The notes beneath the pieces are model-generated. The model had not been told where the DNA came from. It saw nothing but the letters and a program-made list of their open reading frames with translations, and ran no database searches. The position numbers were made by a program, and so were the translations under genes. Shown here one piece after another: positions 39,524-58,238 of a stretch of DNA of 64,000 nucleotides. The stretch is from Streptomyces sp. Go-475 (GTDB lineage Bacteria > Actinomycetota > Actinomycetes > Streptomycetales > Streptomycetaceae), in contig NZ_CP026121.1 of the NCBI RefSeq assembly GCF_003330845.1, positions 6,243,501 through 6,307,500 of the forward strand. The letters are read 5' to 3'. Every line of letters starts with the position of its first letter. Positions within the stretch are counted from its first letter, which is position 1.

Positions 39524-42361
39524 TCAACCGGAGAAGCCGACGTGCGCGAGCCGCAGCGGGCCGCGCAGCCTGAGATGCACGTCGTGCACGCCCGCGGCGA
39601 CGACGGGCGCGGCGACGGAGACGTAGTCGTACGGGCCCGAGGTGGGTTTCGCGGGCGACAGCACCGCGAGCGCCGGGCCGCCGTCGAGGGACAGCTCGAC
39701 CGAGCCCTCGCCGGCCACCTCCACCGTCACCTCGGTGATGCCGGGCCCGAAGTCGCAGGCGCGGTAGACCAGTTCACCGGATGCCGCGTCCACCGGCGTC
39801 ACCGCGTCGCCCGACACCTTCGTCCGGTCGACGATGTCGATGCCGCGCTGCTCGTCGAAGCCGGCGGCGGCCAGGCCGTTCGCGACGACGGCGCGGGGCA
39901 GGGTGGGCTCGCCGTCGAGCGTGACGGTCGTCCGCAGCCGGACGTCCTCGCTGGAGGCCCCGGCCAGCAGCTCGTACGCCCCGGGCTCGACGCGCCACCG
40001 GTCCTGCGCCACATCCCAGAACGCGAAGGCGGACAGCGGGATCTCGAAGCTCAGCTCGGCCGTCGCGCCCGGGGCGAGGGTGACGCGGCGGTGGTCCAGC
40101 AGTTCCCGGCGCGGACGCGGCACGGACGCCCCGACGGCCCGGCCGTAGAGCTGGGCGACCTCGTCGGCCGTGACCTCACCGGAGTTGGTGACGGAGAAGG
40201 AGACCCGCACCGCCCCGTCCTCGACCCGGGCCGTGAGGCCGCCGTACGTGAACGACGTGTACGACAGGCCGTGTCCGAAGGGGAACAGGGGCGTGCCCTC
40301 GAAGTACAGGTACGTCTGGCGGCCACCGATCACGTCGTAGTCGAGCAGGTCCGGCAGGTCGGCGTCGTCGGCGTACCAGGTCTGCGGCAGACGGCCGGCG
40401 GGGGAGACGTCACCGGCCAGCACGCGGGCCAGGGCGGTGCCGGCCGCCTGGCCGCCGTGCGCGGTCCACAGCACGGCCGCGAGGTCGGCCGGGTCGACGG
40501 CGTACGGGTAGGCCGAGACCAGCGCCAGCACCGTCACCGGGTTCGCCGCCCGGGCGGCCCGCAGCAGCCGCTCCTGCTGCCCGGGCAGCCGCAGGGTCGT
40601 CCGGTCCTCCGTCTCACGGCCGTTGATGTGCGGATCGTTGCCCGCCACGACCACGACCACGTCGGCCGCCGCGGCGGCACGCGCCACCGCCTCCTCGCCC
40701 CGCTCGGTGACGACCAGCTCGAACACCTCGGGATCTTCGTCGGCAACCTTCAGGCCGTCGGCGGAGACACAGACATGGCGACCCGTTCCCAGGTGCTTCA
40801 GGAGGTGCCCGTGTCCGTGCGGTTCCAGGCTGAACGTCTCCTGGACGACCCAGCCGCCCGGCTGGTCCGCGGCGGCGCGGACGTACCCGTCCTCGGCGAC
40901 CGAGAGGTAGCGGCCGTCGGGCGCCCGCAGGGTCAGCACGCCCCCGCCCCAGTCGGCCAGCGCCAGTTCGGTGCCGGTCGCGTCGGTGGTGAGCGCGGGC
41001 AGGTCGGTGCGGCCCGCGAGCAGCGCCGGGTCGAGCGCGCCCTCGGCGCCGCGCACCTCCTCGGCGGCGTCCTCGGCCGCCGGCACGTGCACGAACGCGC
41101 CCGCGGCGGTCTTCAGCCGGACCCGGTCGACGCCCTCCGCGAACTCCACCCGGTCCGCGCCGAACCGCTCGTACAGGCCCTCCAGCGGGGTCGAGCGGTG
41201 CAGGAACGTGCCGCTGTACCAGTCGAGCTTGCACTCGTCGGCGAGCAGCCCGACCACCGCGACACGGGTGTCGGGGGCCAGCGGCAGCACCCCGTCGTTC
41301 TTCAGCAGCACGATCGCCTGCTCGGCGGCCTCCTGCGCGAGGGCGCGGTGCGCCGGGGTGTCGAACTCGCCGGTCGCGTCGTGCGGGTCGTGCTCCGGGT
41401 CGAACTCGCCGAGCCGGAAGCGGACCGAGAGCTGGCGGCGGACGGCCGTGTCGATGTCGGCCTCCGTCAGCAGACCGCGCTCCAGGGCGCCGCGCAGCCG
41501 TCCGGTGATCTGCGAGGAGTCCGTGCCGTGGTCGGTGAAGCTGTCGACGCCCGCCACGAGCGAGGCCGCGATGGCCTCCTCATGGGTGTCGAAGTAGTGC
41601 TCGAAGTCGACCAGGTTGCTCGGCGCGCCCGCGTCCGAGCAGACCAGCAGCTCCTGGTCGGTCCAGGTGCGCAGGTGCTCGGCGAGGAGCGGGGAGACGT
41701 GGTTGGGGCGGCCGTTGACCAGGTTGTACGCCGGCATCACCCCGGCCACCGCGCCCGCCTCGACCGCCGCGCGGAAGGCCTGCAGGTCGTACTCGTGCAG
41801 CACCCGCGGGCGCACCGAGCTCGACGTCGTGGCCCGGTCCGTCTCGTTGTTGTGGGCGAGCCAGTGCTTCAGCACGGGCGCGGTGCGCCAGTAGGTGGGG
41901 TGGTCGCCGCGCAGGCCGTGCGTGTAGGCGGTGGCGATCGCCGAGGTGAGCCTCGGGTCCTCCGCGTAGCCCTCCTCGTTGCGGCCCCACAGCGGGTGGC
42001 GCAGCAGGTTGACGACCGGCGCCCAGACGTTGAGGCCGACCCGGTCGTCCCGGGCGCGCATCGCGCGGACCTCCTTGGACACCGCGTCGCCGACGCGCCG
42101 CACCAGCTCCGGGTTCCAGGTGGCGCCGAGGCCCACCGCCTGCGGGAACATCGTCGCCGGGCCCATCCACGCCACGCCGTGCAGGGCCTCCTGGCCCGTG
42201 CGGAAGGCGGCGACGCCGAGGCGCTCGACGGCGGGTGTGAACTGGTGCAGAAAGGAGATCTTCTCGTCGAGGGTGAGCCGCCCCAGCAGATCGTCGACGC
42301 GCTCCGCGAACGGAAGCTGCGGATCGCGGAACGGTTCGGTGGGCGGCGTGTGTGCGGTCAC
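39524..42361 (-). CDS. GH3 beta-glucosidase with inserted beta-trefoil-like domain and C-terminal CBM6-like module
   Basis: 945-residue enzyme without a signal peptide, so cytoplasmic. The GH3 N-domain has nucleophile D243 in LLVCSDAGA. The GH3 C-domain is interrupted at about residues 412-555 by a fascin/ricin-like insert (LTLRAPDGRYLSVAEDG). A fibronectin III-like domain and a CBM6-like beta sandwich follow. It would remove glucose from imported xyloglucan fragments. GTG 42361 is preferred (GGGAT upstream) to the longer frame at 42439. A LacI-type operator lies 36 bases upstream. Other beta-glycosidic specificity is possible. Confidence 0.85.
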   Translation of the reverse strand: MTAHTPPTEPFRDPQLPFAERVDDLLGRLTLDEKISFLHQFTPAVERLGVAAFRTGQEALHGVAWMGPATMFPQAVGLGATWNPELVRRVGDAVSKEVRAMRARDDRVGLNVWAPVVNLLRHPLWGRNEEGYAEDPRLTSAIATAYTHGLRGDHPTYWRTAPVLKHWLAHNNETDRATTSSSVRPRVLHEYDLQAFRAAVEAGAVAGVMPAYNLVNGRPNHVSPLLAEHLRTWTDQELLVCSDAGAPSNLVDFEHYFDTHEEAIAASLVAGVDSFTDHGTDSSQITGRLRGALERGLLTEADIDTAVRRQLSVRFRLGEFDPEHDPHDATGEFDTPAHRALAQEAAEQAIVLLKNDGVLPLAPDTRVAVVGLLADECKLDWYSGTFLHRSTPLEGLYERFGADRVEFAEGVDRVRLKTAAGAFVHVPAAEDAAEEVRGAEGALDPALLAGRTDLPALTTDATGTELALADWGGGVLTLRAPDGRYLSVAEDGYVRAAADQPGGWVVQETFSLEPHGHGHLLKHLGTGRHVCVSADGLKVADEDPEVFELVVTERGEEAVARAAAAADVVVVVAGNDPHINGRETEDRTTLRLPGQQERLLRAARAANPVTVLALVSAYPYAVDPADLAAVLWTAHGGQAAGTALARVLAGDVSPAGRLPQTWYADDADLPDLLDYDVIGGRQTYLYFEGTPLFPFGHGLSYTSFTYGGLTARVEDGAVRVSFSVTNSGEVTADEVAQLYGRAVGASVPRPRRELLDHRRVTLAPGATAELSFEIPLSAFAFWDVAQDRWRVEPGAYELLAGASSEDVRLRTTVTLDGEPTLPRAVVANGLAAAGFDEQRGIDIVDRTKVSGDAVTPVDAASGELVYRACDFGPGITEVTVEVAGEGSVELSLDGGPALAVLSPAKPTSGPYDYVSVAAPVVAAGVHDVHLRLRGPLRLAHVGFSG

Positions 42362-42396
42362 GTGGGGATCCCTTGCACTGGATCGGCGAGGCGCTT

Positions 42397-42410
42397 TCGA
42401 AGCGCTTCGA
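42397..42410. promoter_or_regulatory. LacI-family operator (GH3 side)
   Basis: Perfect TCGAAGCGCTTCGA, with the typical central CG step of LacI-family sites, 36 bases upstream of the GH3 start. Confidence 0.88.
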
Positions 42411-42556
42411 TGCTGATTCGACGACGGGTCGGGTGTCAAGAGACCGACGCCATCACTTCAAGCGGTGCATGAGGAAAGGTCCCTTCTCGCGCCCGGCAGG
42501 AAGTTTGGGAACGACCCTTGTGCACCCTGGGGCGTTCACTTAACCTCACAGCAACA

Positions 42557-42570
42557 TCGAAGCGCTTCGA
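42557..42570. promoter_or_regulatory. LacI-family operator (transporter side)
   Basis: Second perfect TCGAAGCGCTTCGA, 118 bases upstream of the binding-protein ATG, where it could cover the transporter promoter. Confidence 0.88.
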
Positions 42571-42688
42571 CTACGGGAACCCCGGTTGCATGGGTCGAAG
42601 GCTCGCTTCAGCTCAGCCAGTTCCACTCGAGACACCGCAGCCGACGGCCTCCGCCGGGTGTCCTGGTGCGCCATGAAGGGTTGACGCA

Positions 42689-44377
42689 ATGACGCCGAAC
42701 GCCGCCTCCGCCTCCTCCGGACCGAGCCGGAGAAGCTTCCTCGCCTCCACCGCGGTCGCCACCGCAGCCGTGGCGGGCGGGATGCCGCTGCTCTCCGCCT
42801 GTGGTGGCGGGCAAGAGGGCCAGAAGGAGGGGGCCACGTCGGGCAAGGACGCCGCGAAGATCCTGCCGGCCTACGTCGCGTCGAACGTCGCGACCCCCGA
42901 CATCCCTTCGAAGAACGGCTCGCCCGTCGGCTTCACCAGGGCGATCCCGGCGGCCGAGCTGAAGACCTCGGTGCCGCAGAAGCTCGGCAGCGGCGGCCGA
43001 CTGACCATCATGGCCCCCTACTGGGGCACCCCGCCGAAGGGCGACAACCCCTACTACACGGCCATGAACAAGGCCATCGGCGTGGACATCACCTGGCAGA
43101 ACCAGGACGGCGTCACCTACGACCAGAAGCTCGGCGCGATCCTCGCCTCCAGCGACATCCCCGACGCCGTGGTGGTGCCCGACTGGAACCTGACGGGCCG
43201 GATACCCAGCGCGATCAACGCCAAGTTCGCCGACCTCGGCCCGTACCTGTCCGGCGACAAGGTCAAGGACTACCCGAACCTCGCGGCGGTGCCCACCGAC
43301 GCCTGGCAGCGAGGCATCTTCGGCGGCCAGCTCCGCGCCATCCCGATGCCGAACTCCCGCGTCACCAGCATGGCGACCATGTACCGCAAGGACCTCTTCG
43401 CGAAGAAGGGCTACTCCCTCCCGAAGAGCCCCGACGAGTTCCTGTCCTGGGCCAAGGAGGCGACCGAGCCCAGGGCGAAGCTCTGGGCCTGCGACGACAT
43501 GAAGTGGTCGGCCCTGCAGATCTTCGGTGTCCCGCCGGGCGGCGACAAGGCGCTGTGGTGGAACCTGGAGGACGGCAAGCTCGTCAACCGCATCGAGACC
43601 GAGCAGTACCTGGAAGCCCTGGAGTGGGTGCGCAAGCTCTACGCGGCGAAGGTGGTCCACCCGGACGCCGTGTCGGGCAAGGCGGGCGGCATGGCGGCCA
43701 ACCGCTTCACCGCCGGACAGGTCCTGGTCTACAACAACAACATCTCCGACTGGTGGGGCAAGACCGCCGAACAGCGGACCCAGAACCCCGACTTCGAGAT
43801 GGGCGTGTTCGACATCTTCGGGCCCGACGGCGGTGACCCCACGCTGTGGGCCAGTCAGCCGGGCGGCATGTTCACCTTCGTCAGCAAGAAGGCGAGCAAG
43901 CAGCAGATCAAGGACTTCCTCGCGCTCTGCAACTACTGCGCCGCTCCCTACGGCACCAAGGAGTTCATGCTCACCGCCTACGGCGTCGAGGGCACCGACT
44001 ACACGGTGAAGGGCGGCCTGCCGGTCAAGACGCAGCAGGGCATCAACGAGGTCAGCAGCACCTACGACCTCACGGGCAACCCGGCGCCGTACGTCGCCTA
44101 CCCCGACTTCCCCGACATCACCCGGGGCATCGTCGAGTGGCAGCAGCGCATGGGCGCCTTCACCAAGAAGACCACCTTCTACGGGCTGACCGTCACCGAG
44201 CCCACCCGCTGGGCCAACCTCGCCGACGACTTCGAGCAGCTCGAGGACGACGTCGTGCGCGGCCGCAAGAAGATCAGCGACGTGCAGCAGGCGGTGTCGG
44301 ACTGGAAGAAGAAGGGCGGCGACGACCTGCGCGACTGGTACAAGAAGCTGCTCGACGACAACGGCTCGGCGAACTGA
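42689..44377 (+). CDS. Sugar ABC transporter substrate-binding lipoprotein (Tat)
   Basis: A 562-residue family-1-type solute-binding protein, larger than usual monosaccharide binders (400-450), consistent with a long oligosaccharide. The Tat signal SRRSFLASTAVATAAVAGG precedes the lipobox LSAC. The mature domain contains YDQKLGAILASSDIPD and many Trp residues for sugar stacking. It resembles the LplA/complex-carbohydrate group. AAGGG lies 7 bases before ATG 42689. First gene of the operon controlled by the operator at 42557; xyloglucan oligosaccharides are the inferred ligand. Confidence 0.88.
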   Translation: MTPNAASASSGPSRRSFLASTAVATAAVAGGMPLLSACGGGQEGQKEGATSGKDAAKILPAYVASNVATPDIPSKNGSPVGFTRAIPAAELKTSVPQKLGSGGRLTIMAPYWGTPPKGDNPYYTAMNKAIGVDITWQNQDGVTYDQKLGAILASSDIPDAVVVPDWNLTGRIPSAINAKFADLGPYLSGDKVKDYPNLAAVPTDAWQRGIFGGQLRAIPMPNSRVTSMATMYRKDLFAKKGYSLPKSPDEFLSWAKEATEPRAKLWACDDMKWSALQIFGVPPGGDKALWWNLEDGKLVNRIETEQYLEALEWVRKLYAAKVVHPDAVSGKAGGMAANRFTAGQVLVYNNNISDWWGKTAEQRTQNPDFEMGVFDIFGPDGGDPTLWASQPGGMFTFVSKKASKQQIKDFLALCNYCAAPYGTKEFMLTAYGVEGTDYTVKGGLPVKTQQGINEVSSTYDLTGNPAPYVAYPDFPDITRGIVEWQQRMGAFTKKTTFYGLTVTEPTRWANLADDFEQLEDDVVRGRKKISDVQQAVSDWKKKGGDDLRDWYKKLLDDNGSAN

Positions 44378-44403
44378 TCCGGGGCTCAAGCAAGGAGAAG
44401 GCC

Positions 44404-45444
44404 GTGTCCCACAGCACGGTGCCTCAGGCGACGACCGAGGCGAAGACGCCCGCGAGCACTCCGGCGAAGTCCGGCGGCGGCGCCGGAGACCGGGCCCGCG
44501 GCAGGAAGAACGCGGGAAAACTGAGCCTGAGGCTCAGATTCAGGCGTGACCGCGCGCTGATCTTCATGGTGCTGCCGGCGGTCCTGCTGATCCTGGTCTT
44601 CAACTACATACCGATCCTCGGCAATGTGGTGGCCTTCCAGGACTACGACCCGTACGCCGGCGACAACGGTTTCGTCGCCATCCTCAACAGTCCCTGGATC
44701 GGCTTCGAGCAGTTCGAGCGGATCTTCGCCGACTCGGCCTTCTGGCACGCGGTGCAGAACACCCTGGTGCTGTTCTTCCTGCAACTGGTGCTCTACTTCC
44801 CGATCCCCATCCTGCTCGCGCTGCTCATCAACAGCGTCGTCAGGCCACGGGTCCGGGCGGTCGCCCAGGCGGTCATGTACCTGCCGCACTTCTTCTCCTG
44901 GGTCCTCGTCGTCACCGTCTTCATGCAGATCTTCGGCGGCGCCGGGATCATCGCCCAGACCCTGCGCGCGCACGGCTACGAGGGCTTCGACGTGATGACC
45001 GACCCGGAGGTCTTCAAGTACCTGGTCACGGCCCAGACCGTCTGGAAGGACGCGGGCTGGGGCATCATCGTCTTCCTCGCCGCGCTCTCCTCGGTCTCCA
45101 ACGACCTGTACGAGGCGGCCGCCATGGACGGCGCCGGACGCTGGCGGCGCATCTGGCACATCACGCTGCCCGCCCTGCGCCCGGTGATCGCCCTGCTGCT
45201 CGTGCTGCGCGTCGGCGACGCCCTCACCGTCGGCTTCGAACAACTCCTCCTCCAACGACAAGCCGTGGGTGTCGACGCCTCCGAGGTCCTCGACACCTAC
45301 GTGTGGTGGAACGGCATCCGCAACCAGGACTTCAGCTACGCCGCCGCTGCCGGGCTCGTCAAGGGCGTGGTCGGTCTGGCGCTCGTGCTGATCGCCAACA
45401 AGGTGGCCCATCTCATGGGCGAGCAGGGGGTGTACAAGAAGTGA
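44404..45444 (+). CDS. Sugar ABC transporter permease, LplB-type
   Basis: A 346-residue permease of the CUT1 group. About 50 polar residues come first, then six helices and the EAA loop LYEAAAMDGAGRWRRIWHITLP. GTG 44404 is chosen for the AAGGAGAAGG just upstream. It starts 26 bases after the binding-protein stop and overlaps the second permease by four bases (GTGA). Confidence 0.9.
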   Translation: MSHSTVPQATTEAKTPASTPAKSGGGAGDRARGRKNAGKLSLRLRFRRDRALIFMVLPAVLLILVFNYIPILGNVVAFQDYDPYAGDNGFVAILNSPWIGFEQFERIFADSAFWHAVQNTLVLFFLQLVLYFPIPILLALLINSVVRPRVRAVAQAVMYLPHFFSWVLVVTVFMQIFGGAGIIAQTLRAHGYEGFDVMTDPEVFKYLVTAQTVWKDAGWGIIVFLAALSSVSNDLYEAAAMDGAGRWRRIWHITLPALRPVIALLLVLRVGDALTVGFEQLLLQRQAVGVDASEVLDTYVWWNGIRNQDFSYAAAAGLVKGVVGLALVLIANKVAHLMGEQGVYKK

Positions 45445-46394
45445 CCGCCGTCCTCGACACTCCGCCCGGCGACACGCCGCGGGTCAGGAAACCGAGCCGC
45501 TGGGCCGCCCCGCCCCGCCCCGTCTGGGAGGAGCCGCCCTCCAAGGCCGGGCTGGCCGGCAAGGGCATCGCCCTGACCCTGGCCTGCCTGTCCATCCTCT
45601 TCCCGCTGTGGATCGTCATCGTCACCAGCCTCCAGTCGAAGGAGACCATCGACGAGGCCGGCGGTCTGGTGGTGATCCCCAAGGGCATCACCTTCGTCGC
45701 CTACCAGGAACTCCTCAGCGGCGGCCAGGTCCAGAGAGCCACCCTGGTGAGCATCGGTGTGACCCTGGTCGGCACGCTGTTCAGCATGACGGTGTCGGTG
45801 CTGTGCGCCTACGGCCTGTCGCGCAGCGGCTCGCTCGGCCACCGCTGGATCCTGATGACCCTGCTGGCGACGATGTTCTTCGGGGCCGGTCTCATCCCCA
45901 CCTATCTGCTGGTGCAGGCCCTCGGTCTGACGGACACCTATCTGGCGCTGATCCTGCCCAGTGCCGTGAGCGTCTTCAACATCCTCGTGCTGCGCGCCTT
46001 CTTCATGAACATCTCCCAGGAGCTGATCGACAGCGCCCGCATCGACGGCGCCGGCGACTGGCGGATCCTGTGGAAGATCGTTCTGCCGCTCTCCCGCGCG
46101 GTCCTCGCGGTGATCGCCCTCTTCTACGCCGTGGGCTACTGGAGTGCCTGGTTCAACGCGTCGATCTACCTGAGCGACCAGGACATGATGCCGTTGCAGA
46201 ACGTGATGATCCAGCTGGTGCAGATGCAGCAGCGTCCGGTGGGGCTCCAGGCGCAGATCAACACCGGCCAGCTCTCGCCGCTCGCGATCCAGATGGCGGT
46301 GATGGTGCTGGCCCTGCTGCCCGTGGCCGTCCTCTCCCCGTTCGTCCAGAAGCACTTCAAGAAGGGCATGCTCACCGGCGCCGTCAAGGGCTGA
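45441..46394 (+). CDS. Sugar ABC transporter permease, LplC-type
   Basis: A 317-residue permease with six helices and the loop LIDSARIDGAGDWRILWKIVLP. It has the usual C-terminal QKHFKKGMLTGAVKG of LplC-like proteins. GTG 45441 overlaps the LplB stop. No ATPase follows, so the pair must use an ATPase encoded elsewhere, in Streptomyces usually MsiK (known for several sugar importers). Confidence 0.9.
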   Translation: MTAVLDTPPGDTPRVRKPSRWAAPPRPVWEEPPSKAGLAGKGIALTLACLSILFPLWIVIVTSLQSKETIDEAGGLVVIPKGITFVAYQELLSGGQVQRATLVSIGVTLVGTLFSMTVSVLCAYGLSRSGSLGHRWILMTLLATMFFGAGLIPTYLLVQALGLTDTYLALILPSAVSVFNILVLRAFFMNISQELIDSARIDGAGDWRILWKIVLPLSRAVLAVIALFYAVGYWSAWFNASIYLSDQDMMPLQNVMIQLVQMQQRPVGLQAQINTGQLSPLAIQMAVMVLALLPVAVLSPFVQKHFKKGMLTGAVKG

Positions 46395-48748: not shown

Positions 48749-50712
48749 TGCCCGGCCTGAGTGATGCGACGAGGGGGCGCCTCCTCTTCGGCGGCGACTA
48801 CAACCCCGAGCAGTGGCCCGAGGAGACCTGGCACGAGGACGTCCGGCTGATGAAGGCCGCCGGCGTCAACTCCGTCACCCTGGGCGTCTTCTCCTGGTCG
48901 ACGCTGGAACCGGAGCCCGGCGCCCGGGTGTTCGGCTGGCTGGACACGCTGATGGACCTGATGCACGACAACGGCATCGGTGTCGTCCTCGCCACCCCCA
49001 CCTCCGCGCCCCCGCCTTGGATGGGCCGGCTGCACCCCGACACCCTGCCCGTCACCGAGGACGGCCGCACCGAGTGGTGGGGCGGCCGGCAGCACTTCTC
49101 CCACTCCAGCGCCACCTACCGGCGCTACGCCGCCGCCATCACCGAGGACCTGGCCGCCCGCTACGGCGGCCACCCGGCCCTCACCATGTGGCACATCAAC
49201 AACGAGTACTGCACCTACGACTACGGCGACGAGGCCGCGGCCGCCTTCCGCCGCTGGCTGCGCGAGAAGTACGGCACCCTCGACGCCCTCAACGAGGCCT
49301 GGGGCACCGCCTTCTGGAGCCAGGGCTACGACACCTGGGACGGCATCCTGCCGCCCCGCCTGCCGCACTACCTGCGCAACCCCGGCCAGGTCCTGGACTT
49401 CCGCCGCTTCACCTCCGACATGCTCCTGGAGTGCTACACCGCCGAGCGGGACATCGTCCGGCGGCACACCCCGCACCTCCCGGTCACCAGCAACTTCATG
49501 CCGCTGTGGTTCGGGCAGGACGCCTGGCGCTGGGCCGAGGAGGAGGACGTCGTCTCCGTCGACCTCTACCCCGACCCGCGCGACCCGCTCGGCGCACAGA
49601 ACGGCGCCCTGGTCCAGGACATGACCCGCTCCCAGGCGCGCGGGCCGTGGATGCTGATGGAGCAGGCGGCCGGGCCGGTCAACTGGCGGGGCGTGAACCA
49701 CCCCAAGCCCCGGGGGATGAACCGGCTGTGGTCGCTGCAGGCCGTGGCCCGGGGCGCCGACGCCGTCTGCTACTTCCAGTGGCGGCAGTCCCGGCAGGGC
49801 GCGGAGAAGTTCCACTCCGGCATGGTCAGCCACGCCGGCGAGGACGGCCGGACGTACCAGGAGGTCAAGCAGCTCGGCGCCGACCTGGCGCGGATCGCCC
49901 CGCAGGTGACCGGACGGCACCTCACCGCGAACATCGCCGTCCTGCACGACTGGCACGCCTGGTGGGCCGGCGCCCACGACGGCCGCCTCTCCAGCCAGGC
50001 GGAGTACCCGGACGTGCTGCGCGCCTGGCACCGCGCCCTGTGGCAGGCGCACCTCACCACCGACTTCGCCCACCCCGAGCACGACCTCACGCCGTACTCG
50101 GTGGTCGTCGTGCCCCAGCTGTACGCCCTCACCGACACGGCGATCGACAACCTCCTCGCCTACGTCCGGCAGGGCGGCACCCTCGTCTGCGGCTTCCTGA
50201 CCGGCGTCGCCGACGAGGACGACCGGGTACGGACCGGCGGCATGGACGCCCGGCTGCGGGAGCTGTTCGGCATCCGCACGCTGCACGAGTGGTGGCCGCT
50301 GGAGGCGGGGGAGACCGCCGTGTGCGAGGGCTTCCGGGGCACCCTGTGGTCCGAGGAGATCGAGCCCGCCGACCCGGACCACACGATCCCCTACAAGGGC
50401 GGCGAACTGGACGGCATGCCCGCCGTCCTGCGCAAGGGCCGCGCCTGGTACCTCTCCACGCTCCCGGAACCCGAGGCGCTGCGCGACCTGCTGGCCCGGA
50501 TCGCCGAGGGCGCGGGCGTCCGGCCGGTGCTGGACGGCCTCCCCGAGCAGGTCGAGGCGGTACGCCGGGGCGAGCTGCTGTTCGTGCTCAACCACGGCCG
50601 CGAGCCGGTGACCGTCGAGGTGCCCGGCACCCACCACGACCTGCTCACGGACACGGCCGTCACCGACCGGGTCACCCTCGGCCGCTACGAGGCGGCGGTG
50701 CTCCGGTCATGA
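48748..50712 (+). CDS. GH42 beta-galactosidase
   Basis: A 654-residue family 42 enzyme. GGDYNPEQWPEETWHEDVRL is the family start, the acid/base is E153 in WHINNEY and the nucleophile E305 in LMEQAAG. Then come the trimerisation and C-terminal beta domains. No signal peptide, so cytoplasmic. It would remove galactose from xyloglucan side chains (L units). ATG 48748 shares one base with the GH74 stop and has GGGGAG upstream. It overlaps the next gene by four bases. Confidence 0.93.
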   Translation: MPGLSDATRGRLLFGGDYNPEQWPEETWHEDVRLMKAAGVNSVTLGVFSWSTLEPEPGARVFGWLDTLMDLMHDNGIGVVLATPTSAPPPWMGRLHPDTLPVTEDGRTEWWGGRQHFSHSSATYRRYAAAITEDLAARYGGHPALTMWHINNEYCTYDYGDEAAAAFRRWLREKYGTLDALNEAWGTAFWSQGYDTWDGILPPRLPHYLRNPGQVLDFRRFTSDMLLECYTAERDIVRRHTPHLPVTSNFMPLWFGQDAWRWAEEEDVVSVDLYPDPRDPLGAQNGALVQDMTRSQARGPWMLMEQAAGPVNWRGVNHPKPRGMNRLWSLQAVARGADAVCYFQWRQSRQGAEKFHSGMVSHAGEDGRTYQEVKQLGADLARIAPQVTGRHLTANIAVLHDWHAWWAGAHDGRLSSQAEYPDVLRAWHRALWQAHLTTDFAHPEHDLTPYSVVVVPQLYALTDTAIDNLLAYVRQGGTLVCGFLTGVADEDDRVRTGGMDARLRELFGIRTLHEWWPLEAGETAVCEGFRGTLWSEEIEPADPDHTIPYKGGELDGMPAVLRKGRAWYLSTLPEPEALRDLLARIAEGAGVRPVLDGLPEQVEAVRRGELLFVLNHGREPVTVEVPGTHHDLLTDTAVTDRVTLGRYEAAVLRS

Positions 50713-52898
50713 CCGCCACCGCACCCGTCCACGGCACCTGGGAACCGCGTCCGGCCGCCCGCTGGGAGGACGCCTTCCTCAGCGGCAACGGCCACCACGG
50801 CGCCCTGGTGTTCGGCGACCCGGACCACGAGCGGGTCATCGTCACGCACCACACCCTGGTGCGGCCCAACGGCCGGGACCCGAGGCCCCCGCAGCTCGCC
50901 GACGCCCTCCCCGCCCTCCAGGACCGCCTCCTGGCGGGCGACCGGACGGCCGCCGAGAGCTTCACGGACGGCCGCCCGCTCCAGTGGGTGCAGCCCTTCC
51001 ACCCCGCCTTCCAGGTCCGGCTGCGCCGGCCGCCGGCCGACTGCCCCGACTACCGGCGTGACGTCGACTTCACCACCGGCGTGGTCAGCGCGACCTGCGC
51101 CGGCTGGACCGGCCGCGTCTTCGTCTCCCGCGCCGACGACGTGATCGTCCACCACCTCACCGGACCCGGCCTCACCCTCGACATCGACCTGGACCACCGG
51201 CTGCCCGGCGCCCCCGCCGGACTGGGCATCGGCCACGGAGCCGTCCTCACCCCCGAGGGCGCCCTGCTCAGCCTGCGCGCCCGCTACCCGGACGACGACC
51301 GGGCCTGCACCGGCGTCACCCAGGTCACCGTCACCGGCGGCACCACCACCCTGGTGCCCCCCGGCGTGCGCGTCGAGGGCGCCCGGTCCGTGCTGGTCCT
51401 CACCCGGGTGCACCGGCACACCGGCGAACTCGACGTGGTCGCCGAGGGCCGGGCCCTGCGCGACCTGCCCCAGGAGTACGACGAGCTCCTCGACCGCCAC
51501 ACCGCCCTGCACCGCACCGCCTACGAACGCGTCACCCTCGACCTCGCCGCCGACCCCGCCGAACGCGCCCTGCCCGGCTCCGAGCTGCTGACCCGGCCGC
51601 GCAGCGCCGCCCTGCTGGAGCGCCTCTTCGCCGCCGGCCGCTACCACCTGCTCTCCGCGAGCGGCCTCTTCCCGCCCCGCCTGACCGGACTGTGGACCGG
51701 CGACTGGAACACCGCCTGGTCGGGCGCCTTCACCAACGACGCCAACCTCAACCTCCAGACGGCCTCCGCCGCTGCCGCCGCCCTCCCCGAGGTCACCGAG
51801 GCCCACGCGAACCTGATCCACCGCCAACTGCCCGACTGGCGCGAGAACGCCCGCGCGATCTTCGGAACGAGGGGCGTCGTCGCCCCCGCCCACACCGACG
51901 GCGAGTCCGGCCACGTGTACCACTACAACCGCGAGTACCCCCTGCACCTGTGGACCGCCGGCGCCGACTGGCTGCTCAAACCGCTCGTCGACCACGACGA
52001 GACCCACGGCACCCGCGACCCGCGCACCGCCGCCGCACTCGCCGAAGTCGCCGTCTTCTACGAGGACTTCCTCACCAGGACGGACGAGCACGGCCACCTC
52101 GTCGTCGTCCCGTCCTACTCACCCGAGAACCGCCCCGCCAACGCGAGCTGGGGCACCCTCGACGCGGCCATGGACCTCTCCGCGGCCCGCCACGCCCTGC
52201 GCACGGCCGCGGCCTACCACCCCGGCCCCGACGCCGACCGCTGGCACGCCCTCGCCGACCGGCTGCCGCCGCACCGGATCAACGAGGACGGGGCCCTGGC
52301 CGAATGGGCCTGGCCGGGCCTGGAGGACTCCTACGACCACCGCCACCTCAGCCACCTCTACGGCGTCTGGCCGCTCGACGAGATCACCCCCTACGACACC
52401 CCCGAGCTCGCGGCCGCCGCCCACCGCGCCCTCGAACTGCGCGGCGCCGAGAACGACTCCGCCCACGGCCACCTGCACCACGCGCTCATCGCGGCCAGGC
52501 TCAGGGACGCCGACCGCGTCGCCCACGCCCTCGGCCAGGTCCTGGACGGCGACTTCTTCCACGCCTCCCTGATGAGCGCCCACTACCCCAAGCGCGACGT
52601 CTACAACGCCGACGCGGCGCACACCCTGCCGGCCGTGCTGATCGAGATGCTCGTGCAGTCCACCCCCGACCGGCTGGTGCTGCTGCCCGCGCTCCCGGCG
52701 GCGTACCCCAGCGGTGCGCTGCGCGGTGTGCGCACCCGGTTCGGGGCCGAGATCGACCTCACCTGGACGCGGGACCGCGCCACCGCGGTCATCAGGCCGG
52801 GCCGCACCCACCGCGTCGAACTCCGGACTTCCTCCGGCGCAGAATCCCTCCACCTGGTCGCCGGAGAAGACCACGTCCTCACCCTGAGGGCGTGGTAG
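50709..52898 (+). CDS. GH95 alpha-L-fucosidase
   Basis: A 729-residue family 95 enzyme. An N-terminal beta-sandwich (EDAFLSGNGHHGALVFG) is followed by an (alpha/alpha)6 barrel with LTGLWTGDWNTAWSGAFTND and HRHLSHLYGVWP, both family signatures. It cuts alpha-1,2-fucose from galactose, the terminal decoration of plant xyloglucan (F units). No signal peptide, so cytoplasmic. ATG 50709 overlaps the GH42 stop (ATGA), and the coupling suggests fucose and galactose are removed together. Confidence 0.92.
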   Translation: MTATAPVHGTWEPRPAARWEDAFLSGNGHHGALVFGDPDHERVIVTHHTLVRPNGRDPRPPQLADALPALQDRLLAGDRTAAESFTDGRPLQWVQPFHPAFQVRLRRPPADCPDYRRDVDFTTGVVSATCAGWTGRVFVSRADDVIVHHLTGPGLTLDIDLDHRLPGAPAGLGIGHGAVLTPEGALLSLRARYPDDDRACTGVTQVTVTGGTTTLVPPGVRVEGARSVLVLTRVHRHTGELDVVAEGRALRDLPQEYDELLDRHTALHRTAYERVTLDLAADPAERALPGSELLTRPRSAALLERLFAAGRYHLLSASGLFPPRLTGLWTGDWNTAWSGAFTNDANLNLQTASAAAAALPEVTEAHANLIHRQLPDWRENARAIFGTRGVVAPAHTDGESGHVYHYNREYPLHLWTAGADWLLKPLVDHDETHGTRDPRTAAALAEVAVFYEDFLTRTDEHGHLVVVPSYSPENRPANASWGTLDAAMDLSAARHALRTAAAYHPGPDADRWHALADRLPPHRINEDGALAEWAWPGLEDSYDHRHLSHLYGVWPLDEITPYDTPELAAAAHRALELRGAENDSAHGHLHHALIAARLRDADRVAHALGQVLDGDFFHASLMSAHYPKRDVYNADAAHTLPAVLIEMLVQSTPDRLVLLPALPAAYPSGALRGVRTRFGAEIDLTWTRDRATAVIRPGRTHRVELRTSSGAESLHLVAGEDHVLTLRAW

Positions 52899-52933
52899 TT
52901 CCCCCCACCCCCCCCACCCATGGAAGGGACACC

Positions 52934-53647
52934 ATGGCATCACGCACGCTGAGCAGGGTCACCAAAGCCCTGCTGGCCCCCGCTCTGGCTCTCGGCGTCA
53001 CCGTCGGCCTCGCCTCCGCCCCCGCCTCCGCCGCGGTCTGGAACTCCTGCGACCAGTGGGGCCAGACCAACCTGAACGGCTACACGCTCTACAACAACAT
53101 CTGGGGCTCCGGCGCCGGCAGCCAGTGCATCTGGGCCAACTCCGGCACCAACTGGGGCGTCTGGGCCAACCACCCCAACACCGGCGGCATCAAGTCCTAC
53201 CCGAACCAGACGAAGGCGATCAACAAGTCGATCACCTCCCTGGGTTCGCTGACCAGCAGCTACAACGTCAGCGTCCCGTCGTCCGGCGCGTACAACACGT
53301 CGTACGACATCTGGGACACGGACCACGACTACGAGATCATGCTCTGGGTCAACAAGACCGGAGCGGTCGGCCCGATCGGCAGCTCGCAGGGCAGCGTCAC
53401 GCTCGGCGGCCACACCTGGAACGTCTTCAAGGGCACCAACGGCGCCAACGAGGTGTTCTCGTTCATCCGCACCTCCAACTCCAACTCCGGCACCGTGAAC
53501 ATCCTGCCGATCCTGAAGTGGATCAAGGACACCAAGAAGTGGATGGGCAACGAGACCATCGGTGACGTGCAGTTCGGCTACGAGATCACCTCGTCGTCCG
53601 GCGGTCTGAACTTCACCACCAACAACCTCACGGTCAGCAGCAGCTGA
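52934..53647 (+). CDS. GH12 secreted endo-glucanase/xyloglucanase
   Basis: A 237-residue family 12 enzyme. The Sec signal peptide ends about ASAA. Nucleophile E134 lies in DYEIMLWV and acid/base E218 in FGYEITSS. No CBM, unlike several streptomycete GH12 cellulases, and the loop is compact. In this context a xyloglucan-active enzyme is likely, but cellulose or mixed-linkage glucan remain possible. GGAAGGGA precedes ATG 52934. It is the last gene of the co-directional set that starts at the transporter, 35 bases after GH95. Confidence 0.92.
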   Translation: MASRTLSRVTKALLAPALALGVTVGLASAPASAAVWNSCDQWGQTNLNGYTLYNNIWGSGAGSQCIWANSGTNWGVWANHPNTGGIKSYPNQTKAINKSITSLGSLTSSYNVSVPSSGAYNTSYDIWDTDHDYEIMLWVNKTGAVGPIGSSQGSVTLGGHTWNVFKGTNGANEVFSFIRTSNSNSGTVNILPILKWIKDTKKWMGNETIGDVQFGYEITSSSGGLNFTTNNLTVSSS

Positions 53648-53674
53648 CCTCCGGGGCCGGGGCCGGGCGTGCCG

Positions 53675-54862
53675 TCAGGCGCGGTCGACCTCGGCCCGCA
53701 GTGCGTTGTACGCGGCGAAGGCCGACTCGACCTCGTCCCGGGTCAGGCCGTAGCGGGCCAGGTCGTACGTGTGCTTGCGGGCGCCCCGGGGGCGGGCCAC
53801 GGCCGCGGGCAGCCGGGCCGCGTCGGCCTCGGTCCAGGGGGCGCCGACGGCCGCGTAGAGCTTCGGGGCGCCCGTCGCGGGGTCGGAGCCGAGCCAGGAG
53901 TACGGGGCGTCCACCACCTGCTCCGCCGGGACGGCGGCCCGGGCCGCGAGACCGCGCGTCATGGCCCGGCTCAGCAGACCCAGCCAGGTGGTGCCGATGC
54001 CGTGCAGATCGAGGGGGCGGGTGCTGACGGCCATGCCGTGCTCGATCAGGCTGCAGAACGACGCCACGACGGTGACCGGGTCGCGGTGGCACCACACGAG
54101 CGTGGCGTCGGGGAAGACCCTCAGCAACGCGTCCAGGTTCTCCAGGTGCATGGGCGACTTCAGCATCCAGCGCCGCCGCGGACGGCCGTACTGCAGCACC
54201 TGGTACACCTGCTTGAGGTACCGGTAGTCGGCGGTGAAGTCCCGCGCGCAGTGCCACGCCAGGTACTCGGGGATGCGGGCCTGGGAGAACGGCATCAGGG
54301 CGTGCGGCAGCGCGAACGTGCACTCCTCGGGACCCTCGGCGGCCATCGCGTGGATGTCGCGGAAGCGCGGCGCGAACAGGTCCGTGCCCTGGACCAGCCG
54401 GCGCCCGGCCGCGACCGCCCTGCGCCGCTGCCGGGGCGGCAACTCCAGGTCGGGGGCGAGCAGTTCCCACAGCAGCGGACAGCGGTGCCCGTCCGAGATC
54501 GACAGCACCGAGTGCGTGACCGTGGTCGCCGTGCGCGGCAGCCCCACGACGAACACCGGCTTCTCGATCGGCTCCCGCTCGATCTCCGGGTGCTCGGCGA
54601 TCAGCCGCCGCACCCGGGCCCGGTTGGCCAGGTGCCGCCGGACGTGCGCCTGCGCGGACTGCCAGCCGACCGGCGTGAGGTTCTCGGCCTTCGCCCACCA
54701 GCCCAGCAGGGACCGGAAACCGTCGGTGAACTCCTGGTCACCCGGCGCCTGACCGGCCTCCACCGCGATGCGGTCGAAGACCCGGCCGGGATTCCGGCGG
54801 GAGCCGAAAGCGGGCCGCAGCAGCAGGTTGGCGGCGGTGAGGGCGAGCGGAGACGAGGACAC
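53675..54862 (-). CDS. Sulfotransferase family protein
   Basis: A 395-residue protein with a 5'-phosphosulfate-binding P-loop (VFVVGLPRTATTVTHSVL) and a 3'-phosphate motif (LVWCHRDPVTVVASFCS). This is the actinobacterial sulfotransferase family near mycobacterial Stf-like proteins. Substrate unknown; no carbohydrate link can be shown. GTG 54862 has only a weak ribosome binding site. A terminator separates it from GH31, so it is probably not part of the xyloglucan transcript despite its position within the block. Confidence 0.8.
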   Translation of the reverse strand: MSSSPLALTAANLLLRPAFGSRRNPGRVFDRIAVEAGQAPGDQEFTDGFRSLLGWWAKAENLTPVGWQSAQAHVRRHLANRARVRRLIAEHPEIEREPIEKPVFVVGLPRTATTVTHSVLSISDGHRCPLLWELLAPDLELPPRQRRRAVAAGRRLVQGTDLFAPRFRDIHAMAAEGPEECTFALPHALMPFSQARIPEYLAWHCARDFTADYRYLKQVYQVLQYGRPRRRWMLKSPMHLENLDALLRVFPDATLVWCHRDPVTVVASFCSLIEHGMAVSTRPLDLHGIGTTWLGLLSRAMTRGLAARAAVPAEQVVDAPYSWLGSDPATGAPKLYAAVGAPWTEADAARLPAAVARPRGARKHTYDLARYGLTRDEVESAFAAYNALRAEVDRA

Positions 54863-54920
54863 GCAGGGAACCTACCGCTTCCAACTCACCTGCGCTGCTG
54901 GGAAGTTGGCCGAAGAAGCG

Positions 54921-54963
54921 GACGGGGTGGCCGGAAGACCTCCATCGAACCGGCCACCCCGTC
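54921..54963 (-). terminator. Terminator after GH31
   Basis: Perfect 14-bp arms (GACGGGGTGGCCGG at 54921-54934 and its complement at 54950-54963), just beyond the GH31 stop at 54972 on the minus strand. Confidence 0.85.
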
Positions 54964-54971
54964 CGGCACGG

Positions 54972-57014
54972 CTACTCCGCTACCGGCAGCCGCGCCCCGT
55001 CCCGCAGGAACAGCGGGATCCGGTCCAGCGGGGCGTCGACCGTCACGGCCTGACCGCCCTCGTACGTCTCGCCCGTCCACGCGTCCGTCCACGTCGCCCC
55101 CGCCGGCAGGTACGCCGTACGGGCCGTGGCGCCGGCCGTCAGCACCGGGGCGACCAGCAGGTCCGGGCCGAACAGGTAGGAGTCGTCGACCGACCAGGCC
55201 GCCTGGTCCCCGGGGAACTCCAGGAACAGCGGCCGCATCACGGGCAGGCCCTCCTCGTGCGCCTCCCGCATGACGCGCAGGACGTACGGCTTGAGCCGCT
55301 CGCGCAGCCGCAGGTACTTCTCCAGGACGGCCCCGGCCTCCTCGCCGTACGACCACACCTCGTTCGGGCCGCCGGTCATCTCCGGGCCCAGCGGCATGCC
55401 CGGGTCGCGGAAGCCGTGCAGGCGCATGAGCGGGGACAGCGCGCCGAACTGGAACCAGCGCACCATCACCTCCCGGTACGCCGGGTCGTCCGGGTCGCCG
55501 CCGTGGAAGCCGCCGATGTCGGTGTTCCACCACGGGATGCCCGACAGGGCCGTGTTGAGCCCGGCCGCGATCTGGCGGCGCAGGGTCGGGAAGTCCGTGC
55601 CGATGTCACCGGACCACAGGGCGGCGCCGTAGCGCTGACTGCCCGCCCAGGCCGAGCGGTTGAGGGTGACGATCTCCTCCTCGCCGGTGGCGAGAAGGCC
55701 CTCGTAGAACGTCCGGGCGTTCTCGGCCGGGTAGATGTTGCCGACCTCCAGGCCCGGGCCCGCCCAGTAGCGCAGGTTCTCCTGGAAGCCCGGCTTCAGC
55801 TCCGGCTCGCAGGCGTCCAGCCAGAACGCCGTGATGCCGTACGGGTCCAGGTAGTTCTCCTTCACCTTCGACCACACGAACTCCCGGGCGTCCGGGTTCG
55901 TGGCGTCGTAGAAGGCGACCTGGACCGTGGAGGCGACCTCCTTGTCGGGCCAGTCGGCGTGCGCCATCGGCCCGTACTGGGTGCCGATGAACCAGCCGCG
56001 CTGCTCCAGGACCGGGTGGTTCTCGCTCAGCGGCGACACCGAGGGCCAGACGCTCACCACCAGCTTGATGCCGAGCTCCTCCAGCTCCCGCACCATCGCC
56101 GCCGGGTCCGGCCACTCCTTCGGGTCGAACTTCCAGTCGCCGAGGTGCGTCCAGTGGAAGAAGTCGCAGACGATCGCCGAGATGGGCAGGCCCCGCCGCT
56201 TGTACTCCCGGGCCACCGCCATCAGTTCGTCCTGGGTGCGGTAGCGCAGCTTGCACTGCCAGAAGCCCGCCGCCCACTGAGGCAGCATCGGCGTCCGGCC
56301 GGTCACCGCGCTGTAGCGGCGCTGGGCGGCGGCCGGGTCGCCCGCCGTGATCCAGTAGTCGATCTGCCGGGCCGAGTCGGCGACCCACCGGGTGCCGTTG
56401 TGCGCCAGCTCCACGCGGCCGATCGCCGGGTTGTTCCACAGCAGCGTGTAGCCCCGGCTGGAGGTCAGCACCGGGATGCCGACCTCGGCGTTGCGCTGGA
56501 CCAGGTCCAGCACCAGGCCCTTCTGGTCGAGCCGCCCGTGCTGGTGCTGGCCGAGGCCGTAGAGCTTCTCGTCGTCGTAGGCGGCGAAGCGCTGCTCCAG
56601 GCGGTGGTGGCCGTTGCCGACGGCCGTGTAGAGGCGGGAGCCGGGCCACCAGAAGTGGGCGCGGTCCTCGGCGAGCAGTTCGGCGGCGTCGTCCGTCCGC
56701 AGGAAGCGGATGAGGCCCTCGGCGTTCACCTCGACGGTGAGCGCGCCGACGGTCAGCCGGCCGCTGCCGTCCTCGATCTTCACCGTGGACGGCGTCGCCG
56801 GCGCCTCGTCGAGCAGGGCGCCCGGCAGCCCTTCGAGGACCGGGCCGCCGAGCCGGGCACGCACCCGGACCGCGTCCGGACCCCACGGCTCGATCCGTAC
56901 GGTCTCCTGGCGGCCGCTCCACTCCAGCGCGCCGCCGCGCTCGCGGAACGTGCCGACCGTGGGGGAGGACTGCGCCAGGCTCACCTGGGGCTGGGTTTCA
57001 GCGGGCTGATTCAC
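54972..57014 (-). CDS. GH31 alpha-xylosidase
   Basis: A 680-residue family 31 enzyme. The N-terminal beta domain is followed by the (beta/alpha)8 barrel with nucleophile Asp in TAFWLDACEPE and acid/base Asp in LWSGDIGT. The YicI-like features CDFFHWTHLGDWKFD and WLDACEPE point to alpha-xylosidase rather than alpha-glucosidase. No signal peptide. It would remove non-reducing-end xylose from imported xyloglucan oligosaccharides, allowing GH3 to act. GTG 57014 has AGGAG 9 bases upstream and lies 91 bases below the lacI stop, probably co-transcribed with lacI. Confidence 0.9.
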   Translation of the reverse strand: MNQPAETQPQVSLAQSSPTVGTFRERGGALEWSGRQETVRIEPWGPDAVRVRARLGGPVLEGLPGALLDEAPATPSTVKIEDGSGRLTVGALTVEVNAEGLIRFLRTDDAAELLAEDRAHFWWPGSRLYTAVGNGHHRLEQRFAAYDDEKLYGLGQHQHGRLDQKGLVLDLVQRNAEVGIPVLTSSRGYTLLWNNPAIGRVELAHNGTRWVADSARQIDYWITAGDPAAAQRRYSAVTGRTPMLPQWAAGFWQCKLRYRTQDELMAVAREYKRRGLPISAIVCDFFHWTHLGDWKFDPKEWPDPAAMVRELEELGIKLVVSVWPSVSPLSENHPVLEQRGWFIGTQYGPMAHADWPDKEVASTVQVAFYDATNPDAREFVWSKVKENYLDPYGITAFWLDACEPELKPGFQENLRYWAGPGLEVGNIYPAENARTFYEGLLATGEEEIVTLNRSAWAGSQRYGAALWSGDIGTDFPTLRRQIAAGLNTALSGIPWWNTDIGGFHGGDPDDPAYREVMVRWFQFGALSPLMRLHGFRDPGMPLGPEMTGGPNEVWSYGEEAGAVLEKYLRLRERLKPYVLRVMREAHEEGLPVMRPLFLEFPGDQAAWSVDDSYLFGPDLLVAPVLTAGATARTAYLPAGATWTDAWTGETYEGGQAVTVDAPLDRIPLFLRDGARLPVAE

Positions 57015-57105
57015 GTGGCGTGCTCCTGTGCTCCTGGAGGAGTGCAGACATGGGGGTGCCCCGAGAGGAGGGGGCGGTGTTCAAGGGGGTGGGGCGGAGG
57101 GGCGC

Positions 57106-58119
57106 CTACGAGCGGCTCGGCGCCGGTCCCGTGCTCGTCCGTACGGTCAGCTCGGGCGCGATCAGCACGACCTCGTCGCGGCCGCGCCCCTCGAGCTTGG
57201 CGACCAGGTGCTCCACCGCGTGCCGGCCCATCTCCTGCGCGGGGATGGCGACCGACGTCAGCCGCACCGAGGCCTGCATCGCGACCTGGTCGGGACAGAT
57301 CGCGACCACCGACATGTCCTCCGGCACGGCCCGGCCCTGCTGCCGCAGCAGCGCGAGCAGCGGCTCGACCGCCGACTCGTTCTGCACGATGATCCCCGAG
57401 GTGTCCGGGCGTTCGTCGAGGATCCGGGCGAGCGTCACCGCCATGGCGTCGTACCCGCCCTCGCACGGCCGGTGCAGCAGCCGCACGCCCAGTTCCCGCG
57501 CGCGGGACCGCAGCCCGTCGAGGGTGCGCTCGGCGAAGCCCGTGTGCCGCTCGTAGACGGCCGGGGCCTCTCCGACGACGGCGATGTCCTGGTGCCCCTG
57601 CTTCGCCAGGTGCTCCACGCACAGCGCGCCCGTCGCCCGGAAGTCCAGGTCGACGCAGGTCAGGCCGGTGGTGTCGGCGGGCAGCCCGATCAGCACCGAC
57701 GGCTGGTCGGTCGCGCGCAGCAGCGGCAGCCGCTCGTCGTCGAGTTCGACGTCCATCAGGATCATCCCGTCGGCGAGCCCGCTGCCCGCGACGCGGCGCA
57801 CCGCGTCCGGCCCCTCCTCGCCGGTGAGCAGCAGCACGTCGTACCCGTGCGTGCGCGCGCAGGTCGCCACCGCGATGGCGATCTCCATCATCACGGGCAC
57901 GTACATGTCCGTGCGCAGTGGGATCATCAGCGCGATGATGTTCGACTTGTTGCTCGCCAGGGCCCGGGCCCCGGCGTTCGGGTGGTACCCGAGCTCGCGG
58001 ATGCTCCGCTCGACCCGCTGCCGGGTGGTCGCGGAGATGGACCGCTTGCCGCTGAGGACATAGCTCACCGTGCTCGCCGAGACTCCGGCGTGCTGGGCGA
58101 CCTCGGCGAGGGTGACCAT
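57106..58119 (-). CDS. LacI family regulator of the xyloglucan locus
   Basis: A 337-residue repressor. The HTH MVTLAEVAQHAGVSASTVSY and hinge helix NAGARALASNKS are typical of LacI proteins, followed by a two-lobed sugar-binding domain (ADGMILMD, PSVLIGLPAD, GIIVQNESAV). It binds, by inference, the palindrome present beside its own start and upstream of GH3 and the transporter. GGAGAG precedes ATG 58119. GH31 lies downstream in the same orientation. The inducer is likely a xyloglucan-derived oligosaccharide. Confidence 0.88.
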   Translation of the reverse strand: MVTLAEVAQHAGVSASTVSYVLSGKRSISATTRQRVERSIRELGYHPNAGARALASNKSNIIALMIPLRTDMYVPVMMEIAIAVATCARTHGYDVLLLTGEEGPDAVRRVAGSGLADGMILMDVELDDERLPLLRATDQPSVLIGLPADTTGLTCVDLDFRATGALCVEHLAKQGHQDIAVVGEAPAVYERHTGFAERTLDGLRSRARELGVRLLHRPCEGGYDAMAVTLARILDERPDTSGIIVQNESAVEPLLALLRQQGRAVPEDMSVVAICPDQVAMQASVRLTSVAIPAQEMGRHAVEHLVAKLEGRGRDEVVLIAPELTVRTSTGPAPSRS

Positions 58120-58135
58120 CCAGCTCTCCAAGTTT

Positions 58136-58149
58136 GTGAAGCGCTTCGA
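58136..58149. promoter_or_regulatory. LacI-family operator (lacI-proximal, one mismatch)
   Basis: GTGAAGCGCTTCGA: one base differs from the perfect palindrome. It ends 17 bases above the lacI start and is suited to autoregulation. Confidence 0.8.
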
Positions 58150-58224
58150 CAGTGCGCATTGCTGATAACGGCGAGTGAGGGTGGTTCGACAGTAGCTCCA
58201 GCGGTCCTGGGTGTCCATAGGATG

Positions 58225-58238
58225 TCGAAGCGCTTCGA
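58225..58238. promoter_or_regulatory. LacI-family operator (lacI-distal)
   Basis: Perfect TCGAAGCGCTTCGA in the same gap. Its centre is 89 bases from the other site, giving room for DNA looping. Confidence 0.85.

Follow-up and report, generated by a model that had tools for sequence, protein, structure and literature searches.

How does a streptomycete organize the use of a branched plant polysaccharide, and is a single gene block under a single regulator enough for the task? The question is raised by positions 39524-58238 of a 64,000-nucleotide stretch of Streptomyces sp. Go-475 DNA (the window, corresponding to 6243501-6307500 of the 8.57-Mb single-contig genome), which a preliminary description had read as an apparently complete locus for fucosylated xyloglucan under one LacI regulator. 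Among the hemicelluloses of primary plant cell walls xyloglucan is a major one, and in soil Streptomyces play a major part in decomposition. As a whole, the best explanation, to which we assign a probability of roughly 0.87, is that the block forms the centre of a xyloglucan system in Streptomyces, repressed by its LacI-family protein, LacI1, with satellite loci elsewhere in the genome and with an importer that has been exchanged.

Gene content and likely substrate

All ten genes of the preliminary description were recovered with agreeing families and coordinates by Pfam and, for the glycoside hydrolase (GH) family 74 gene, by comparison with the PDB, Pfam giving only Sortilin/BNR repeats for this protein. 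Leftmost on the minus strand lies a predicted cytoplasmic GH3 beta-glucosidase with Fn3-like and CBM6 domains (39524-42361). Its open reading frame (ORF) was called to 42439; on inspection, GTG at 42361 appears to be the likelier start because the called TTG sits upstream of an operator. Divergently, the plus strand carries a solute-binding lipoprotein (SBP, 42689-44377), the ATP-binding cassette (ABC) permeases A (44404-45444, start by inspection) and B (45441-46394), a xyloglucanase-type GH74 (46544-48748), a beta-galactosidase-type GH42 (48748-50712), an alpha-L-fucosidase-type GH95 (50709-52898) and a GH12 endo-enzyme (52934-53647). These genes are densely packed, and with the starts chosen here start and stop overlap at permease A/B, GH74/GH42 and GH42/GH95. 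A putative GH31 alpha-xylosidase of the MeXyl31 type (54972-57014) and LacI1 (57106-58119, ATG start by inspection) follow on the minus strand. The earlier gene list had overlooked one further gene, a sulfotransferase on the minus strand (53675-54862).

By inspection of the N-termini, GH74 and the SBP have twin-arginine (Tat)-type RR signals, the SBP together with a lipobox, and GH12 has a Sec-type signal; no signal peptide was seen in this inspection for GH3, GH42, GH95 and GH31. This fits the division into secreted GH74 and GH12 and cytoplasmic GH95, GH42, GH31 and GH3 that had been proposed. As in Gram-positive ABC-type xyloglucan loci, the SBP and two permeases cluster with GH31, GH42 and GH3. 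Transport is represented by SBP_bac_8 and BPD_transp_1 domains, and neither SusC/SusD nor an ATPase domain was found by Pfam among the scanned locus ORFs. In the mechanism that we propose, the secreted GH74 and GH12 would cleave xyloglucan to oligosaccharides, which the SBP and the two permeases would take up. Energy would be supplied by a shared ATPase such as MsiK, which we assume since the locus yielded no ATPase gene. In the cytoplasm, stepwise trimming would then remove fucose by GH95, galactose by GH42, xylose by GH31 and glucose by GH3.

The nearest solved relatives point to xyloglucan. In PDB sequence searches, GH31 is closest to MeXyl31 (5zn6, 694 bits), followed by 7kmp (355 bits), 6dru, CjXyl31A and BoGH31A; GH74 scores about 508 bits against xyloglucanases and 375 bits against the reducing-end enzyme 1sqj, with 7kn8 also among its relatives; and GH95 is closest to 7kmq (203 bits), then 4ufc (157 bits). 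Some of the matched entries are known as xyloglucan enzymes. For GH12 the nearest structure is NopAA (6sdu, 157 bits), for which excerpts of PMC7303141 report high activity, exclusively on xyloglucan. Since these relatives and also the operator-linked satellite genes (next section) are xyloglucan-type, we regard xyloglucan as a well supported substrate of the locus, as had been claimed; for the more specific claim of a fucosylated form, it is the GH95 gene that suggests such a substrate.

Several matches sit less easily with this substrate. GH31 reaches 250 bits on the NCBIfam alpha-xylosidase model, the cut-off of which is 606; GH42 was assigned from Pfam; and the best PDB match of a satellite GH43 (5z5d) is a beta-xylosidase. 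In PDB phmmer searches GH3 is closest to beta-xylosidase and beta-glucosidase types, with isoprimeverose-producing enzymes lower, and it was dropped as proof of the substrate because its relatives are generic. The locus might instead serve another beta-glucan or a mixed substrate, e.g., mixed-linkage glucan or cello-oligosaccharides, with GH31 and GH95 acting on the side chains of another polymer. GH12, GH3, GH42 and GH95 are indeed broad families, and GH5, GH6 and GH48 genes adjoin the satellite GH43/SBP locus. We nevertheless consider such a substrate very unlikely, as GH31 is nearest to MeXyl31 and other alpha-xylosidases, GH74 to xyloglucanases and GH12 to a xyloglucan-exclusive enzyme, and as another GH74 gene, a YicI-type alpha-xylosidase and GH5-CBM46 are among the operator-linked genes elsewhere. 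Moreover, the cellulose regulon uses a different operator, TGGGAGCGCTCCCA, in the excerpts of its published descriptions.

A comparison with other Streptomyces at this site, suggested earlier as a check, covered 80 related loci, all of them from Streptomyces and, being the best 80 of 218 GH74 loci found, biased to close relatives. All ten genes were present on the expected strands in 42 of the 80, in the same order among the matches listed; the other 38 were left out because of truncated contigs, limited flanks or absent genes. GH5 and/or GH43 homologs lie alongside the gene set in 8/80 loci, which supports one common pathway. On the family level, GH31 relatives (E ≤ 1e-250) occur in 44 of 200 genomes and in 7 of 17 genera.

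A common operator and LacI-family proteins

The matching operators mentioned in the preliminary description were readily found. The operator TCGAAGCGCTTCGA is a perfect palindrome of 14 bp with three exact copies in the locus: O1 (42397-42410), about 36 bp 5' of the proposed GH3 start, O2 (42557-42570), within the promoter region of the SBP operon, and O3 (58225-58238), 5' of LacI1. Copies with two mismatches lie at 58136-58149, about 17 bp 5' of LacI1, and at 48269 inside GH74. These five matches compare with a shuffled mean of 0.29, and none of 100 shuffles reached five. The whole genome contains 5 exact sites, and 13 with at most one mismatch versus 2 for the reversed pattern. The palindrome is thus located at the promoter of the regulator itself and at target promoters, in the layout of a LacI-repressed dispersed regulon, and the CebR operator TGGGAGCGCTCCCA is not present in the intergenic sequences of the locus. 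LacI1 could bind the TCGAAGCGCTTCGA copies at its own promoter and at the two divergent promoters of GH3 and SBP, keeping these promoters repressed until a xyloglucan-derived sugar frees it.

In the related loci the sites are kept: of the 64 comparable regions between GH3 and SBP, 63 contain the exact operator twice and the remaining one contains it once, and in 44 of 47 comparable loci an exact operator lies within 300 bp 5' of LacI. Among 150 genomes of the genus, an exact site was found in 88/88 with a LacI match and in 4/62 without (Fisher p 2.9e-37), a p value that is optimistic because the genomes share ancestry, from a search (E ≤ 1e-90) that counts paralogs too, which weakens the link to LacI1 itself. 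Site totals were 336 in the LacI-bearing genomes versus 4 in the others, and 5 versus 17 for the reversed-pattern control. This co-occurrence suggests that LacI1 may act on TCGAAGCGCTTCGA.

Ten operator-like sites with at most one mismatch lie outside the locus. An exact and a one-mismatch site precede two genes that encode ricin-type lectin domains, one for a GDSL-type acylhydrolase and one of GH74 type, and the promoter stretch at this unlinked locus resembles the SBP promoter around O2. A further exact site stands before a YicI-type GH31 followed by LacI3 (46% identical to LacI1); this GH31 scores 965 bits against YicI in the PDB search and lies above the NCBIfam alpha-xylosidase cut-off. 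Of the further one-mismatch sites, one separates GH43 from an SBP operon with LacI2 (62% identical to LacI1) behind it, and another is near GH36-like and GH43 genes. Behind the satellite GH43 lie two GH5-CBM_X2-CBM46 genes. The nearest solved structure for the satellite GH5 is 4v2x (513 bits), and for the satellite GH43 it is 5z5d (384 bits), then BoGH43A/B of the Bacteroides xyloglucan locus (371/326 bits). Judged from its sequence, the locus is hence not self-contained but forms the centre of a regulon that is dispersed and has several LacI paralogs. The terms "apparently complete" and "one LacI regulator" were too simple, as the same operator occurs at unlinked loci, two of which, the GH5/GH43 and YicI loci, have a LacI paralog of their own. 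Likewise, the statement that GH43 is absent is correct for the locus, yet the unlinked locus with the one-mismatch operator has such a gene. Through this operator, LacI1 and close paralogs may thus also control the GDSL-type protein and GH74-lectin genes, the YicI-type alpha-xylosidase and the GH5-CBM46/GH43 genes.

In other genomes, 28 regions with sites away from LacI1 were sampled (29 were fetched, one of which was the present locus). They stem from 15 of the 19 genomes with a full site listing, the other four having in-locus sites only; sites near LacI1 were taken as in-locus by coordinate only. Xyloglucan-type genes or a LacI3-like gene are present in 21 of the 28 regions, namely a YicI-type GH31 and/or a LacI3-like gene in 15 and GH74, GH5-CBM46, GH43, GH3 or similar genes in 6.

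A number of observations argue against so orderly a regulon. The three loci without a LacI-upstream site (L114, L130, L139) all fall within the eight GH5/GH43 variants. Only five of the ten outside sites in the Go-475 genome are next to xyloglucan-type genes, with three in a nonribosomal peptide synthetase (NRPS)/polyketide synthase (PKS) region and two inside other ORFs. Among the 28 sampled regions, four look unrelated and three front an IlvD/EDD dehydratase, and region L155, counted as fitting, does so only by a GH3 of 46% identity.

Several LacI paralogs with different inducers might use the common operator, so that LacI1 would govern part of the sites. We regard this as a serious possibility, if one slightly short of even odds. 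LacI1-4 have a common recognition segment, STVSYxLSGKR (x variable), and LacI3 lies by an exact operator in its own genome, as do LacI3-like genes elsewhere; in four of the regions concerned YicI is truncated or was not found. This is to be set against the fact that the paralogs are not separated in our data, the search at E ≤ 1e-90 counting LacI2- and LacI3-like matches and some genomes having only those.

Some sites deserve mention in their own right. In regions L156, L166, L169 and L171 a LacI3-like gene adjoins an exact operator, and YicI beside the site is truncated or was not found; in two of these genomes a full YicI is present at a different site (L157, L165). In L154, L168 and L173 the exact operator is at or just 5' of the IlvD/EDD-type dehydratase gene, in L168 near a pectate lyase gene, and the dehydratase perhaps catalyzes a sugar-acid step. 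LacI4 (39% identical to LacI1, with the same recognition segment; L064:9510-9883) has a related palindrome, TCGAACCGGTTCGA, and a gene for a LamG/CBM protein as neighbours. In the NRPS/PKS region (L020:4302-4748, G000:C1:6885301-6885747), two one-mismatch operators with a spacing of 130 bp lie in the interval that separates ABC exporter ORFs from an NRPS ORF, and a third is at about L020:14983. Two other carriers were found among 295 genomes; the one-mismatch site is single in one and missing in the other, and both have a three-mismatch element near the gene. Because these carriers show one or no one-mismatch site, we do not claim the possible link of the NRPS/PKS cluster to the regulon.

Separate history of the importer cassette

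The three importer genes, i.e., the SBP and permeases A and B, behave as one cassette. Among 43 full loci, the window included, their pairwise identities correlate with each other with a rho of 0.88, and with those of every other locus gene from −0.15 to 0.15. Gene pairs outside the cassette correlate from −0.06 to 0.60, and the flanking aldehyde dehydrogenase (ALDH) gene and GH31 with only 0.08. The locus is generally mosaic, and the importer stands out by its depth of divergence and by its behaviour as a block. Of the 26 pairs in which GH31 is more than 95% identical, 15 have an SBP identity below 75%. For the YicI module, taken as a small control, importer and YicI vary together with a rho of 0.71-0.88 (8 loci, some nearly identical).

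Two relatives illustrate this. Along the near relative L067, DNA identity is 0.97 at 42600-42800, 0.70-0.89 across the cassette and the gap before GH74, and then 0.94; by gene, it is 0.77-0.84 in the cassette and 0.92-0.97 in ALDH, GH3, GH74, GH42, GH95, GH12, GH31 and LacI. In the distant L086, by contrast, the three cassette genes are 0.94-0.95 identical and the same eight other genes 0.84-0.90, with the sulfotransferase at 0.66. The SBP falls into five types, which are scattered over the backbone tree; this number depends on the chosen clustering cut-off, and one type has weak tree support (31). The types need 4 changes on the cassette tree and 15 on the backbone tree. In approximately unbiased (AU) tests, which used quick LG+G4 trees and clades picked after viewing the data, the cassette data reject the backbone clade (p-AU 8e-7) and the backbone data reject the cassette type of the window as a clade (p-AU 4e-53). 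The SBP match is partial in L126, one of the 42 full loci. The importer cassette hence has a history separate from the rest of the locus.

Without any exchange, such a pattern could in principle also arise by fast evolution, or by a duplication in an ancestor followed by differential loss. The mean SBP identity is 0.73, versus 0.90-0.92 for GH31 and LacI, and one genome, G101, has two SBP copies. Furthermore, the 15 changes on the backbone tree compare with a shuffled mean of 20.4, with values as low in 1/200 shuffles, and the SBP types are therefore not wholly random on this tree. However, 70 of the 71 genomes with an SBP match (E ≤ 1e-120) have a single copy, which speaks against old duplicates. 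Also, the cassette is closer to that of the distant L086 than to that of the near L067, with the order reversed for the other genes, and the AU tests reject both merged trees. We thus hold duplication or fast evolution to be highly improbable, and in the mechanism proposed here the cassette would have been exchanged between species at a fixed site.

As to the reason for exchange, we may speculate that the importer is a replaceable part, whose three genes are swapped together at the same position, the types being old and at least five in number, while enzymes and regulator stay. A swap could retune uptake of galactosylated, fucosylated or arabinosylated oligosaccharides, or it could evade a phage or toxin that uses the surface SBP; this interpretation is tentative, and we would give it a little under an even chance. 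The type-diagnostic residues of the SBP are spread along the chain. Its AlgQ/FusA/NgtS-like fold (AF2 model, Foldseek/VIA) is compatible with, though not specific for, binding of xyloglucan oligosaccharides, and the PDB sequence search with the SBP gave no match. Given the cassette result, one may ask whether, in polysaccharide use, diversifying selection acts on uptake and not on cutting.

Relation to known systems and further features of the locus

The structures 7kn8, 7kmp and 7kmq, the PDB relatives of GH74, GH31 and GH95, are presumably Xanthomonas entries; Xanthomonas is Gram-negative, and its transport and regulation differ from those of the Streptomyces locus. The xyloglucan machinery to which we relate them is that of PMC8245568, available in excerpts. 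In the portions at hand of Ravachol et al. 2016 (PMC4780118), the xyloglucan cluster of Ruminiclostridium cellulolyticum follows a similar logic, with extracellular cutting, an SBP and two membrane proteins without a linked ATPase, and cytoplasmic GH42, GH31 and GH3. Unlike here, the extracellular enzymes are cellulosomal, regulation is by a two-component system with an AraC-like regulator and not by LacI, and the cluster is listed with GH31, GH3 and GH42 only. For Anaerocellum bescii, excerpts of a preprint (PMC12710961) describe Athe_2052, a 56-kDa xyloglucan oligosaccharide binding protein grouped with AlgQ1, AlgQ2 and FusA, and cytoplasmic GH31 and GH42. Organism and gene set differ, and the SBP of the present locus is without a PDB sequence match, so that no sequence kinship with this importer is established; its structure 9PMY was not among the matches listed in the fold comparisons, which shows nothing either way. 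The Bacteroides ovatus locus (PMC4967831, in excerpts) likewise debranches with GH31, GH43 and GH3, its GH43 pair being for arabinosyl side chains; it differs by TonB-dependent transport, periplasmic enzymes and GH2 in place of GH42.

A parallel in regulation is given by the CebR/CelR cellulose regulons. According to excerpts of PMC4898821 and PMC3377646, these LacI-family proteins have a 14-bp palindrome with a GCGC centre and genome-wide sites at genes of carbohydrate-active enzymes, as here, yet the operator is TGGGAGCGCTCCCA and the genes are those of cellulose use. One actinobacterial CelR regulon is said to include a xyloglucanase, and a tomato rhizosphere study, available in part, linked Streptomyces xyloglucanase and alpha-xylosidase variants to plant loci. 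No description of a Streptomyces xyloglucan locus or regulator was found among the matches listed from the literature searched, with most subscription journals outside its scope; a xyloglucan counterpart of the Streptomyces CebR regulon did not turn up. The operator core, the 12-mer CGAAGCGCTTCG, was not found in a literature text search, also run with the shorter GAAGCGCTTC, among the matches listed, and a narrow search on importer exchange gave nothing relevant. The chemistry is ordinary, and it is the regulator, the dispersed layout and the exchangeable importer that are apparently undescribed. The earlier remark that an actinobacterial equivalent is much less described is borne out for the Streptomyces literature, but the same logic has been published for Ruminiclostridium and, as regards the binding protein, for Anaerocellum bescii. 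A 14-bp site permits direct genome-wide prediction of regulon members.

The Sulfotransferase_3 gene at 53675-54862 on the minus strand is present in 19 of the 42 full loci and at more than 60% identity was not found in the other 23. As in addition a strong hairpin parts GH31 from this gene, we judged it a likely, optional passenger and not a member of the pathway. The hairpin (54905-54975, minus strand) has −46.1 kcal/mol and a z of −5.26, equalled by 0/200 shuffles, and may be a terminator. It lacks a T run, and the consensus scan, which was uninformative for the locus (0 promoter-like sites; 2 terminator-like sites versus a shuffled mean of 4.2), did not call it.

Outside the locus, a further BNR/Sortilin-repeat gene, GH74-like and with CBM2, lies beside a GH48 with CBM2 (L022:3684-9620); no operator of the TCGAAGCGCTTCGA type was among the matches listed in this stretch. 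An ORF called at L026:2717-5470 combines a short GH42 piece with a GH36-like part, suggesting neighbouring or broken genes. Elsewhere in the window, 32012-32141 on the minus strand matches the Streptomyces small RNA scr5676 in Rfam with 141 bits.

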